This document shows positions 13,546 through 23,103 of a stretch of 64,000 nt of DNA, one piece after another. The position numbers and the translations under genes are program-made. The DNA is taken from contig LVBV01000003.1 in NCBI GenBank assembly GCA_001604565.1, positions 1 through 64,000 of the forward strand, given 5' to 3'. The DNA is from Puniceicoccales bacterium Verruco_01 (GTDB lineage: Bacteria; Verrucomicrobiota; Verrucomicrobiia; Opitutales; Oceanipulchritudinaceae). The notes beneath the pieces were generated by a model. The model was not told the origin of the DNA. It ran no database searches and saw nothing but the letters and a program-made list of their open reading frames with translations. The stretch's first letter is position 1, and each line of letters begins with the position of its first letter.

Positions 13546-14247
13546 CTACTTTGCCGCGTCCTTTGCGGGAAGGGCCGGGGCGATGCGCACCACCTCGGGA
13601 TCGTCGCCGCTGATGGAGACGAAAATCTCGCCGTGGGTGTCCTCGCCCACATGGCGCGCCGCCGCCACCGCGAGGCTCGGCAGGGCTTTGCGCAGGTCCG
13701 AGTTCGCCTCGCGTGTCGTGACGATGACCGACCAGAGCTGCGGCAGCTCGCCCGAGGCGTCCGCCTTCGGTGCAAAAGCCGTCAGGGAAAGACGCATGTC
13801 GTAATACGTCTCGGTGGTGGTGGTCTGGTAAAAGTCGGGACTCGGGTGCCAGTAGCTCGTGCGGACAAAGACGACGGCGCCCGAGCGCGTGCGCACCGGA
13901 ACGCGTCCACTCGCGTAGAAGAACGGATCGTAGAAGGAATCCGTCCGCGTGACGGAGACGCTGCGCGGCTCGCTCACCGAGGTGTCCAGCGCGATGACGA
14001 TTCCGGCGGAGGAAGCGTCGGGGCTCTCGCTATAGCCCTTTGCCTCCAGAGCCTTCGCGACGATGCGCGAGGCTTCCCTGAAGCGCAGGTCGCCCGCGGA
14101 AAGATCCGGATTGGCCGGAACGATGTGAAAGGCCGCCGTGACCGGATGTCCCGAGGAAATGGCGTCCACCTTCACGCGGCGCACCGTGGCGCAGCCGGCC
14201 AGGAGCAGTGCGAGAAGGAAAAACGAGAATTGGCGTAGCATTTTCAT
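13546..14247 (-). CDS. Putative lipoprotein (DUF4136-like)
   Basis: MKMLRQFSFFLLALLLAGCATVRRVKVD lipobox; start at 14247 inside a longer ORF. Confidence 0.7.
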   Translation of the reverse strand: MKMLRQFSFFLLALLLAGCATVRRVKVDAISSGHPVTAAFHIVPANPDLSAGDLRFREASRIVAKALEAKGYSESPDASSAGIVIALDTSVSEPRSVSVTRTDSFYDPFFYASGRVPVRTRSGAVVFVRTSYWHPSPDFYQTTTTETYYDMRLSLTAFAPKADASGELPQLWSVIVTTREANSDLRKALPSLAVAAARHVGEDTHGEIFVSISGDDPEVVRIAPALPAKDAAK

Positions 14248-14421
14248 GACCGGCCTTTTGCTGGGATTACCTCTTGGAAACAGACAGAGAATGCCCCTTC
14301 CGGTTCCGGAAGGCGAGCCAATGCGCATCCGGCCCCCGCGACGAAAGGGATGAAGTTTTCCCGACTTCTGCCGACATAGGAACCGGGGGACTGTCGTCGG
14401 ATCGCATCCCCGTGGAGGATC

Positions 14422-16056
14422 ATGGCAACCACCAGCAGCACATCGAGCACATCGAAGTCGAGCGACCTCACCGCGCTCCGCTGGAAAACCATCCTCGAAT
14501 ACAACGAGCTGAACGCCTTCGCCATTCCCAAATCGAAGGTCACGGACGACACGCTTACCCAGTACAAGTCTGTCACGACGGACTCCTACAAGCAGAGCAC
14601 GGGTTTGCTGAAGAACATGACCGAAAAATTGGGCACGATTGAGGGCAATCTGAAACAGATGCTCACCTTTGCCCAAAACGGGGCGCAGGCGCGCAGCGAC
14701 AAGAAGGAGGAAACCGCCTTCGCTCAGCTGCGTACCCTTTCCGCCGGTATCGACTCCATCGTCCGCAGCTACACGCTGGAGGATTTGAAACTCTTTTCCG
14801 GACGCTCCGTCAACCTGTCCTACGACAACGGGTCTTTCCAGATGAAGCTGGACAATCTCTCCAGCAGCGGCAAGGACGGGCTGGGACTGGCCAAAACCGG
14901 AGACGGCGCCTTCGTCAAGATCAGTTACGACTACCTGAACACGAAGCGCAACAACAAGACGAGCATCGCGGGACTCGACATCACAAGCGCCTCCACCTGC
15001 AAGGGTGACCCGACGGTCAAACAACTGACTGACGGGAAGTATCAGGTGAAGGTGGAGTACAAGGGGCCCAAGTCCACGATCTATATCCAGAATCTGGACG
15101 GCACGACGATCGACAAGGCGGAAAACGTGGATCTGACGGGCACCGGCCAGATGGATGTGAAACTCGGCTGCGGCGTGCAGCTTTCGCTGGAGAAGACCTA
15201 CTTCAAGACGGCTCTGGGCGGGGACAAGTACGACTACGAGACCTTCGGTTCCGTCTCCCTGTACGCGAACCTCTCCTACGAGAAAAACGTCCAGCATTTC
15301 CTCGACGACGGCTCGAAGAAAACGCTCGTCACCGAGAACAGCGTGAGCGTGGCGAGCGGACGCAATCTGAGCGGAACGACCGGCAACATGAAGGTCTCCG
15401 CAGAGGTGGCGCCCGTGTACGACGGACGCACCCAGATGGCCACGGGGCCGTACAGTCTGAAGATCAAATACGCGGGCGTGGGCGGCAAAAGCTCGTCGCT
15501 GTGGCTCTACGACAACAACGGCAACCTCGTCTCCACGGTGTGCAGTGTGAATCTCTCCGGAACCAAGCCCGTTTCCGTGGACCTTGGAACCGGCGTGTCC
15601 ATCACCCTCGACCAGCAGAATTTCACCTCCGGGGCGCGCACCTACAACACCACCCTCAATTACACCGCCGCCGACGAGCCCTACAAGGTCTTCGACTTCA
15701 AGGCTTACACGGAAAAGATCCAGGAGGCGCTGGACACGGTGAAAGAGAACTTGAAGACGGTTTCCGACGCTCAGGAGGAACTGGACTCGCGCTACAGCAT
15801 CGTGCAGTCGGCCATCAAGCTGGCCGTCACCGGCGGCGCCACGCAGTCCGCACTCTCGGATGTCCTCGCGGGCGCACTGTCCAAAAAAAACACGGTCTCC
15901 GCCTCCGACCTCTTCGGCAGCGTGAATTCGTCGGTCGATTCCTCCATCACCACGGTTCTTTCCGACAACAGCATCACCGACATTCTGACAAGCAACGTCG
16001 AAGACCTCTCTGACGTGGATTCCTCAATTCTGGCGCTCTATTACAAGAAGAGATGA
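14422..16056 (+). CDS. Flagellin-like protein with divergent D0 ends
   Basis: N-terminal block STGLLKNMTEKLGTIEGNLKQMLTFAQNGAQARSDKKEETAFAQLRTLSAGIDSIVRSYTLEDLKLFSGRSV has flagellin D1 spacing (ggaL.eI...LqrmreLa.qa.ng..sd.dr..i..El..L..eId.i...t.fng..L.sG); C-terminal EALDTVKENLKTVSDAQEELDSRYSIVQSAI resembles the flagellin C-terminal D1 helix. Confidence 0.65.
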   Translation: MATTSSTSSTSKSSDLTALRWKTILEYNELNAFAIPKSKVTDDTLTQYKSVTTDSYKQSTGLLKNMTEKLGTIEGNLKQMLTFAQNGAQARSDKKEETAFAQLRTLSAGIDSIVRSYTLEDLKLFSGRSVNLSYDNGSFQMKLDNLSSSGKDGLGLAKTGDGAFVKISYDYLNTKRNNKTSIAGLDITSASTCKGDPTVKQLTDGKYQVKVEYKGPKSTIYIQNLDGTTIDKAENVDLTGTGQMDVKLGCGVQLSLEKTYFKTALGGDKYDYETFGSVSLYANLSYEKNVQHFLDDGSKKTLVTENSVSVASGRNLSGTTGNMKVSAEVAPVYDGRTQMATGPYSLKIKYAGVGGKSSSLWLYDNNGNLVSTVCSVNLSGTKPVSVDLGTGVSITLDQQNFTSGARTYNTTLNYTAADEPYKVFDFKAYTEKIQEALDTVKENLKTVSDAQEELDSRYSIVQSAIKLAVTGGATQSALSDVLAGALSKKNTVSASDLFGSVNSSVDSSITTVLSDNSITDILTSNVEDLSDVDSSILALYYKKR

Positions 16057-16502
16057 TCCCCTCCTTTCCACAGAATGCCGAAAGGCTCTACCGGCTGGAG
16101 GCGCTGAAGGCCATGTCGGCGCGCGAGAGGCTGCTTGTCACCTGCGACCTTGCCTGGCAGGCGGCCAACGAGGGCGACGAAAACCGCCTGCGGGGACTGC
16201 TTCTGCTCCTCAAGATGAGCCTGCGTTTCGAGAAGACGCCGATTCAGGCCCTCGCGGCCCTGCGGACCTTCCGCCACTGCGAGGCGGCGCTGGAGCGCGG
16301 GGATTATCCCGAGATTTCCCGCGTGTTCTTCCTTCTCAAGCGCGGTCTTGCCGAGCCGGATACCACACCCTCTGGCCCGGAGGCCGAGGCCTGCCGCGAA
16401 AAAGTCCTTCGCGAGGGAATGCACCTTCGCTTTGGCCGCAGCAAACCCCACTTCGCGGGCCAGTCCACCGTGCGCGTGCAAAAGACGCCCGTAGCGGAGT
16501 GA
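16053..16502 (+). CDS. FliS-like export chaperone (putative)
   Basis: 149 aa, start overlaps the stop of the flagellin-like gene; NAERLYRLEALKAMSARERLLVTCDLAWQAANEGDENRLRGLLLLLKMSLRFEKTPIQALAALRTFRHCEAALERGDYPEISRVFFLLKRGL matches FliS helix order and length. Confidence 0.6.
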   Translation: MIPSFPQNAERLYRLEALKAMSARERLLVTCDLAWQAANEGDENRLRGLLLLLKMSLRFEKTPIQALAALRTFRHCEAALERGDYPEISRVFFLLKRGLAEPDTTPSGPEAEACREKVLREGMHLRFGRSKPHFAGQSTVRVQKTPVAE

Positions 16503-21005: not shown

Positions 21006-21042
21006 CCGATTTCTCTGATCGACAGATATGGGTATGGAAAAA

Positions 21043-21070
21043 GCGCGGCGCCTTTGGAGGGGCGCCGCGC
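21043..21070 (+). terminator. GC-rich hairpin after the 102-aa ORF
   Basis: GCGCGGCGCC-TTTGGAGG-GGCGCCGCGC, perfect 10-bp stem; no clear U-tract. Confidence 0.45.
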
Positions 21071-21123
21071 CTCTGTGTACGGATTCGTTGCGCGCGCGGC
21101 GACAATCCGTTATTTTCCGCTTC

Positions 21124-23103
21124 ATGGATCCCGCGTCCCTGCAACCGCTCCGCGACAGGGCGGACCTCGCGCGCCGCCTCGGCGGGGCACAGGCCGCCAC
21201 GAAAGTTTTCGAGAAGGCTCTTGCGGAGAATCCGGACGACCCGGACCTTCTGCTGGAAACCGGCGCCGGTTGTTACGCGGCGGGAGAGAGGGAGAAGGCC
21301 CTGCCCTTCCTTCGGGAAGCGGCGCGGAGGCGCCCCGGTTGGACGCGCGCTCTTTTGCTTTTGGCGACGAATCTGGAGGAGCTGGGCAACCCCGGCGAGG
21401 CCGCCGAACTCTTCGCCCCGCTTGCCGACCAGAAGAAGGACCCCCGCGCCGAGGCGTACGCCGCCTTTCACCTTGCGGGGATTCATCTCGCGGGCGGCGA
21501 AGCGAAAAAGACCGTGGAAATCTGCCGCCGTATCCTCGCCCGCCTGCCGGGGGACGCCGCTTTCCGCAGGCTGCTCCTTCTTGCCTGCGTCCGGACGGGC
21601 GACCACGCCGGGGCGGTGGCCGCGTACGACCTTCTGCCGCCCGTCCGCGCCGAGCGCCGCGCCGACCTCGCGAAGATAGCACGGAGCTTCATCCGCCTTG
21701 GCGACTACACGGGATTCATCCGGCGCTTCGAGGCCCTCGGCGATTTTTCCGACGGAGTACTCCTTGCCGCCGCCGCCGAGGTGTACAACGATACCGGTCT
21801 GCGCGAGAAGGAGGAGGCCTGCCAGAAAAGGGCCCTCGCCCTGCTCCCGGACGACAGCGCCCTCCATTCCTATGAGTTAAAGACGATGACCGAGTCCGAC
21901 ACGGTGACGGAGGAGGAGATCCTCGCCTTCGCCAAGGACTGGGACGCGAAATTCGGCACGCCGAAGGACGCCCCGGCTTTCAAGGACTTCCCACGTCTTC
22001 CCCGCAAAGGGAGGCGCGTGCGGCTCGGGATTCTCTCCCACTCCTTCCGGCGGCACGTCACGATGACGATCCTGCGGCCCCTGCTGCCGGAACTGGCGAA
22101 GCGCTTCGAGCTTTACGGCTACTACGACGACTTTCCGGAGGACGACTTTACGAACGAGGCAAAGAGCCACTTCGCCCTCTTCCGCAACACCGCCGCCCTC
22201 TCCGAAGCCGCAGCTGCGAAGGCGATCCACGACGACGCCCTCGACGTTTTGATTGACATTTCCGGCCATTTCAGCGGGGCACGGACGAAGATCCTCACCT
22301 ACAAACCGGCACCTTTCCTCATCCACTACGCCGACAGCAGCTCCACCCTCGGCCTCTCCGCCGTCGATTGCCGCTTTTCCGATCCGATCGCCGAGCCGCC
22401 AGAATGGGGCGACCGTTATTCGGTGGAAAAGGTCCTGCGACTGCCGCGCGGCTTCTTCCTCTACCAGCCGCTTCTCCCCTGCGGCGAGCCCGCGCCCTGC
22501 CCGGCTATAGGCAACGGCTTTGTCACCTTCGGTAGCTGCGCGGCGCTCCACAAGCTGACGGATACGACCCTCGCCCTCTGGAAAGCGGCCTTGGACGCGG
22601 CGCCCGGAAGCCGCCTGCTGCTGGCACGCGACGAATTCGCAAGGGACGAGGGCCTGCGGCGGCTCTGGCGGGAACGTTTTGCGAAGGCGGGCTTCGATCC
22701 CGAGCGCGTCACCCTCGCCTCCGGACAGAAGGACGACTTTGTGCGACTCAAATTCTACGCGAAAATCGACATCGCCCTCGACGCCTTCCCCTACAGCGGG
22801 GTCACGACAACCCTCGACGCCCTCTGGATGGGCGTGCCGGTCGTGAACTACCGGGAAACGCGCTTCATCAACCGGGTATGTTCCTCGCTCCTGACGCAGG
22901 TCGGCCTCGCGGATCTCGTGGCGGAGACACGTGAAGACTTCGCGGCGAAGGCGGCGGCCCTCGCGGCGGACGAACCCCGGCGACGGCACCTGCGCGAAAC
23001 CCTGCGCGGCGCGATGCTGCAAAGTTCCCTCTGTGACGGCGCTGGCATGGCGGCGGACATGGAAAAGGCGATCCTCGCGGAACTCGACGCAAGGGGACTT
23101 TGA
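21124..23103 (+). CDS. TPR-containing O-GlcNAc transferase/SPINDLY-like glycosyltransferase (GT41 family)
   Basis: N-terminal TPR-type helices; LGILSHSFRRHVTMTILRPLLPEL, DVLIDISGHFSGARTKILTYKPAPFLIHY, FVTFGSCAALHKLTDTTLALWKAAL, DAFPYSGVTTTLDALWMGVPVVNYRE. Confidence 0.88.
   Translation: MDPASLQPLRDRADLARRLGGAQAATKVFEKALAENPDDPDLLLETGAGCYAAGEREKALPFLREAARRRPGWTRALLLLATNLEELGNPGEAAELFAPLADQKKDPRAEAYAAFHLAGIHLAGGEAKKTVEICRRILARLPGDAAFRRLLLLACVRTGDHAGAVAAYDLLPPVRAERRADLAKIARSFIRLGDYTGFIRRFEALGDFSDGVLLAAAAEVYNDTGLREKEEACQKRALALLPDDSALHSYELKTMTESDTVTEEEILAFAKDWDAKFGTPKDAPAFKDFPRLPRKGRRVRLGILSHSFRRHVTMTILRPLLPELAKRFELYGYYDDFPEDDFTNEAKSHFALFRNTAALSEAAAAKAIHDDALDVLIDISGHFSGARTKILTYKPAPFLIHYADSSSTLGLSAVDCRFSDPIAEPPEWGDRYSVEKVLRLPRGFFLYQPLLPCGEPAPCPAIGNGFVTFGSCAALHKLTDTTLALWKAALDAAPGSRLLLARDEFARDEGLRRLWRERFAKAGFDPERVTLASGQKDDFVRLKFYAKIDIALDAFPYSGVTTTLDALWMGVPVVNYRETRFINRVCSSLLTQVGLADLVAETREDFAAKAAALAADEPRRRHLRETLRGAMLQSSLCDGAGMAADMEKAILAELDARGL

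Follow-up and report, generated by a model that had tools for sequence, protein, structure and literature searches.

Organization of the P1-P2 locus

The 64,000-nucleotide stretch analysed here (the window) contains two open reading frames on the same strand, P1 and P2, which share an ATGA stop/start (Table 1) and which the first-pass annotation had placed exactly, as a protein of 544 residues and an overlapping one of 149. A 4-base overlap is likewise present in one relative (L023) and a 1-base overlap in three others (L024, L029 and L031). The window lies on contig C56 of an Opitutales-type MAG (G000; 2.5 Mb, 61 contigs, 94.7% completeness). The genes around the pair are housekeeping genes (cytidylyltransferase-like, RodZ-like, ketohexokinase/PfkB kinase, thymidylate kinase, DNA polymerase III delta-prime-like and HrpA-type helicase), and no further flagellar genes were found among those scanned. 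Divergent from P1 lies a frame for an apparent lipoprotein-type protein that has no Pfam match (13546-14259, minus strand). A protein combining TPRs with a family 41 glycosyltransferase, built like the Caulobacter flagellin glycosyltransferase FlmG, is encoded at 21028-23103 on the plus strand, and a second TPR/family 41 protein (L022:456-2876) adjoins flaF on contig C6 of the same genome; these proteins might modify P1 or flagellin.

Upstream regions were scanned with a sigma-28 consensus of the type TAAAGTTT-N11-GCCGATAA (16 scored positions). Those of P1 genes score 11.9/16 on average versus 9.6 in 231 control upstream regions, the controls being mechanical ORFs and so partly not genes, and 0.9% of these controls score as high as the window promoter (13). 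The mean of the 18 P1 upstream regions was reached by none of 300 dinucleotide shuffles (10.1). The sigma-28-like promoter is convincing for the family overall and for the window gene, and weak for several single members. A scan for sigma-54 promoters did not separate P1 from the controls by eye.

Table 1. Features of the P1-P2 locus (window coordinates)
Feature	Position	Strand	Basis
Sigma-28-like promoter TGAAGTTT-N11-GCCGACAT, 71 bases before the P1 ATG	14351..14377	+	13/16 consensus positions
P1, flagellin-superfamily protein, 544 aa	14422..16056	+	ORF calls, homologues, profile, model
Conserved N-terminal motif LTxxQIxEFNxxxAFA (family form), P1 residues 19-34, in place of D0	14476..14523	+	Alignments, model
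Two predicted N-terminal D1 helices, P1 residues 56-116	14587..14769	+	Model helices 56-88 and 93-116 (pLDDT ~90-97); match to solved flagellin D1
Outer beta-rich region, two similar halves, P1 residues 129-415	14806..15666	+	Model strands, regional identity
Predicted C-terminal D1 helix (45 residues), P1 residues 426-470	15697..15831	+	Model
Ser/Ala/Asp-rich tail, P1 residues 471-544, predicted disordered, where flagellin has the C-terminal D0	15832..16053	+	pLDDT <50 for 472-544
P1/P2 ATGA stop/start overlap, putative translational coupling	16053..16056	+	ORF calls
P2, putative divergent FliS-type export chaperone, 149 aa	16053..16502	+	Profile and fold matches

Relationship of P1 to flagellins

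Direct Pfam and NCBIfam scans of both window proteins gave nothing usable, P1 by itself matching no family in either collection. Homologues of P1 in other genomes range in identity from 55% down to ~23%. Flagellin_N (PF00669) is matched in Pfam by 7 of 17 family members, four members lie above its gathering cut-off in the genome search, and a profile of the 17 members matches solved flagellins, the best being a Sphingomonas cell-surface flagellin homologue (E 3e-8). Profile comparison with the flagellins of the same genomes is weak when taken alone (20%, E 0.0012, 81 columns). The corresponding comparison with FliD was nil and P1 has no similarity to FliD_N or FliD_C, so that P1 was rejected as a FliD homologue.

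The AlphaFold model of P1 (17 sequences; mean pLDDT 78, pTM 0.67) places a beta-rich middle between the N- and C-terminal helices, which pair as in flagellin D1, and flagellins lead its fold matches in the PDB. The first 37 rows of the Foldseek search consist solely of flagellins, filament complexes and FlgL, and FliD is first named at rank 39 with a probability of 0.09. Whole-chain TM-scores are low (about 0.2-0.46) and RMSDs high, and the fold evidence thus resides in this ranking and in the D1 helices rather than in a close global fit. The D1-like N- and C-terminal segments pointed out in the first-pass annotation are present, and the family match, the PDB profile match and the model together support the placement of P1 in the flagellin superfamily.

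The termini of P1 depart from those of flagellin. No recognisable D0 block was found at either end, in agreement with the first-pass annotation, and none of the 17 members tested matches Flagellin_C (PF00700). The N-terminal motif that takes the place of D0 has L19, I24, A32 and F33 invariant or nearly so in the family alignments, and the model includes a short helix (residues 21-27) within it. At the opposite end the tail is the least conserved part of P1 (identity 0.21), versus 0.68 for the C-terminal D0, the best conserved part of the flagellins in related genomes. Identity in the outer domain (0.36/0.31) is close to that of the D1 part (0.38/0.26), and the outer domain is kept across five families, unlike the flagellin middle.

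P2 as a putative FliS-type chaperone

The likeness of the short partner to FliS, also proposed in the first-pass annotation, holds at the level of profiles and predicted fold. Relatives of P2 match Pfam FliS (PF02561), one of them above the cut-off (the L109 member, 28.3 bits vs 26.7), while most members, including that of the window, do not reach it. Compared as profiles, P2 and the FliS proteins of this order match strongly (97.5%, E 8.7e-12, 103 columns), and solved FliS proteins are the best sequence matches of P2 (E 8e-8). FliS entries also lead the fold search (3k1i, probability 0.99; 1ory, TM 0.51/0.63), with E no better than 0.07. These matches support P2 as a divergent FliS. The classic client of FliS is flagellin, not FliD.

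At most loci P2 directly follows P1. G005 and G012 have it a few kb away, near flagellin genes, and the G060 contig showed no P2. Following P1 in G005 (L026:7526-8488) and G012 (L028:10731-11684), where P2 would be expected, is a gene with a GNAT fold, matching Acetyltransf_6 in G005.

Flagellar genes elsewhere in the window genome

The first-pass annotation described the pair as an orphan, which holds for the scanned neighbourhood but not for the genome, where FlhA, FlgK, FlgL, flagellins, FlbT and FlaF are all encoded and FliD is absent. Contig C6 carries the Pfam-confirmed order flgK-flgL-flagellin-flbT-flaF, and flhA lies on contig C12. Six separate Flagellin_N matches occur outside the window, one of them a canonical flagellin that has D0 ends and adjoins flbT-flaF; the true flagellins are therefore genes distinct from the D0-less P1. 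Additional flagellin genes or fragments are located on C6, C25, C30 and C48, those on C48, C25 and C30 (L115, L116 and L117) being broken off at contig ends. Such truncated genes are expected where near-identical flagellin copies break an assembly, and a second P1 copy could vanish likewise. P1 was also rejected as FlgK or FlgL, for which separate genes are present in G000 and G068.

The cluster on C6 (L022:3468-5774) is a flagellin-flbT-flaF group of alphaproteobacterial type inside an Opitutales-type genome. FlaF and FlbT were detected by tblastn in G000, G001, G002, G005, G010 and G012; the stretches retrieved around the flagellin/flgK loci of G009, G019 and G068 gave no match to either. 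Judged by eye, the C-terminus is alpha-like (e.g. LADLNEEGANLLALQTSQQLG) in each of the 16 flagellins sampled from P1 genomes, and the flagellins of G018 and of relatives with FliD or canonical FliS are classic.

Gene order, copy number and distribution

In several genomes P1 lies among flagellar genes. G068 has the order flgN-flgK-flgL-P1-P2 with a flagellin adjoining on the other strand, G009 and G242 have P1-P2-flagellin (P1 of G009 being split across two contigs), and in G005 and G012 three flagellins are directly followed by P1. In G029, a genome with FliD, the order is flagellins, fliD, a lipoprotein-like ORF and fliS; the P1-P2-flagellin loci mirror this arrangement, which was counted toward a replacement of FliD. 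The P1a copy of G000 and G001 lies apart from flagellar genes.

P1 occurs as a single copy, or two in some genomes, versus several flagellins. In the P1 tree the window-type copies (G000, G001, G002 and G010) form a group set apart from all others with high support, and G001, G002 and G010 each have a second, diverged copy (P1b) outside this group, which a homologue search of the contigs of the window genome did not find. G242 carries a partial second P1 with its middle missing (L112:10810-11952), followed by a second P2 and another flagellin, an arrangement suggestive of a P1-P2-flagellin unit that was duplicated in tandem and then decayed.

The pair is conserved in relatives. P1 was found in 8 of 37 close genomes, G000 counted, and in 15 of 373 genomes of the order, a weak sixteenth match (G303) being left out. 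Searches with three close P1 members returned relatives in a Puniceicoccales MAG and an Opitutales MAG; no homologues were found on plasmids, and a class-wide search outside the order gave weak matches in short frames only (E 9e-7 or worse), which are probably flagellins.

Across the 373 genomes FlhA was detected in 141, FliD_N in 65 and FliS in 77 (75 past the cut-off), and P1 and FliD never occur together. All eight P1 genomes among the 37 close genomes searched also lack FliD_C, and none of the 15 P1 genomes has a canonical FliS, the weak FliS match of G009 being its P2. FlhA accompanies P1 in 14 of the 15 genomes, the exception being 74% complete. Among the FlhA-positive genomes (n=141; in reduced genomes some of the FlhA matches could represent homologues from type III secretion), P1 is present in 14, FliD_N in 63 and both in none; 72 have FliD or FliS without P1, and none has P1 with FliD or canonical FliS. 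Fisher tests that assume independent genomes, an assumption that does not hold here, give p = 1.4e-4 for P1 against FliD and 2.1e-5 against FliD or FliS. When 34 genomes of up to ~1.3 Mb are left out, our own choice based on size, these values become 9e-7 and 2e-8, again treating genomes as independent. Both phylogeny and the presence of alpha-type flagellins in the P1 genomes confound this exclusion. A third state is seen in G018, which has FlhA and several classic flagellins and no match to FliD, FliS or P1. A Caulobacter control run through the same searches lacks both FliD and FliS.

Proposed function

The evidence from sequence supports P1-P2 as a late flagellar gene pair, consisting of an exported-type flagellin relative and its own chaperone. 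The first-pass annotation had left P1 as either a very divergent flagellin or a flagellin-derived filament or secreted protein that has lost its D0 contacts. Homology and D0 loss are both supported, and the derived protein is favoured because the true flagellins are separate, P1 makes up a family of its own in which the outer domains are conserved, and this family is confined to genomes without FliD. FlgK, FlgL and flagellin being separate genes in the window genome, the hook-associated role that is missing is that of HAP2. With FlgK, FlgL and FliC accounted for and FliD not, and with P1-P2 in a fliD-fliS-type position, the most likely role of P1 appears to be that of a flagellin derivative, exported late and provided with a dedicated chaperone, which stands in for FliD at the tip of the filament, although we put this at slightly under an even chance.

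For such a role the P1 tail is a candidate binding site for P2, which would bind this disordered segment and hand P1 over to the FlhA gate. P1 would then travel out through the flagellum, where it would form no filament of its own because the D0 contacts are missing, and at the filament tip it would help flagellin to assemble, which is the job of FliD. By extension, some Opitutales lineages may have exchanged their filament module, with alpha-type flagellin and P1-P2 taking the place of classic flagellin, FliD and FliS. The fuller proposal, in which P1 is a filament cap that derives from flagellin, has no relation to FliD and is exported by its own FliS, and which would show how an alpha-type flagellum without FliD grows its filament, is rated somewhat less likely than not. 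Counted in favour of a cap are the few copies of P1, the conserved outer domain, the sigma-28-like promoters, the synteny and the exclusion of FliD; counted against it are the absence of FliD similarity, the classic service of FliS to flagellin, the two diverged copies in G001, G002 and G010, and G018. Weighing most heavily against a cap is that filaments of alpha type seem able to do without FliD in any case. Many motile Alphaproteobacteria have no FliD, and FliDST is reported to be absent from Rhodothalassium, as such genes often are from other motile Alphaproteobacteria (PMC11762602). Alphaproteobacteria lack FliD and FliS with no known P1, and the alpha-like flagellins of the P1 genomes may likewise account for their loss of FliD. 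For Caulobacter, the assembly factor for secreted flagellin is depicted as an unknown 'X' (PMC7591256). Alpha-type flagellins outside the Alphaproteobacteria, together with a dedicated flagellin-derived protein and its chaperone, make P1-P2 a concrete candidate to test, and if the tip role is true the pair would be a case of a filament-tip module exchanged as a unit. Among the papers searched, none described the P1-P2 pair or a loss of FliD from these bacteria.

The main rival is that P1 is an accessory flagellin homologue, exported via the flagellum to the surface or medium for adhesion or matrix binding and unneeded for filament assembly, as likened to Sphingomonas p5, Vibrio FlaE/FlaF and Campylobacter FlaC. 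Flagellin homologues outside the filament are known (PMC8306008), the best match of P1 among solved structures is one from the Sphingomonas cell surface, and the loss of D0, the distance of P1a from flagellar genes in G000 and G001 and the two copies in some genomes fit such a protein. This reading is nevertheless on the unlikely side: P1 is limited to FlhA-positive genomes (14/15, the exception 74% complete) and excludes FliD, its outer domain does not change fast but is conserved in five families, and several genomes carry it inside flgK-flgL or flagellin operons.

A minor filament, hook-proximal adaptor or regulatory flagellin is the next alternative, and an improbable one. Caulobacter FljJ, to which P1 would then be comparable, is exported first, cannot build filaments alone and feeds back on flagellin translation via FlbT. 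FlbT and FlaF do adjoin a flagellin in the window genome and P1 directly follows flgL in G068, but FljJ is a flagellin that uses FlaF, whereas P1 has no D0 and a FliS-type partner gene, and neither FlaF nor FlbT turned up around the flagellin/flgK loci fetched from G009, G019 and G068. The alpha-type system of Caulobacter does retain such a flagellin paralogue in FljJ (PMC7591256).

That P1-P2 is a relic of an ancestral classic flagellin and FliS, drifting after an alpha-type flagellin took over, could account for a FliS relative among alpha-like flagellins and for the poorly conserved tail; however, the frames are open in 17 of 17 members used, and the outer domain, N-terminal motif, promoters and operon are kept across families, which makes drift unlikely and this reading very improbable and largely refuted already. 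Despite its D1 homology and FliS neighbour, P1 is hardly conceivable as the organism's own filament flagellin FliC, given its lack of D0 and the six other Flagellin_N matches in G000, with a D0-bearing flagellin beside flbT-flaF.

Comparison with known systems

P1 shares with flagellin FliC/FljK (PF00669/PF00700) the helical D1 core, a beta-rich outer domain flanked by N- and C-terminal helices, and the occurrence in flagellate genomes; it differs in its missing D0 ends and Flagellin_C match, in its conserved outer domain and in being separate from the true flagellins. The FliD (HAP2) cap, with FliS, resembles P1 in adjoining FliS and flagellin or following flgL and in its single or few copies, whereas P1 has no FliD_N/FliD_C similarity and its core resembles flagellin. 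Sphingomonas sp. A1 p5 (PDB 2zbi, 3k8v and 3k8w) is the closest solved sequence and a flagellin relative proposed to lie outside the filament, but its match to P1 is limited to N-terminal D1 and the beginning of the outer domain. The FlaF/FlbT system of alpha-type export and regulation occurs in the same genome beside flagellin, whereas the partner of P1 is of FliS type and not FlaF. P2 itself is like FliS in length, helix order, profile match and the presence of FliS among its best PDB folds, and differs in being tied, in the window genome, to P1 and not to a flagellin.
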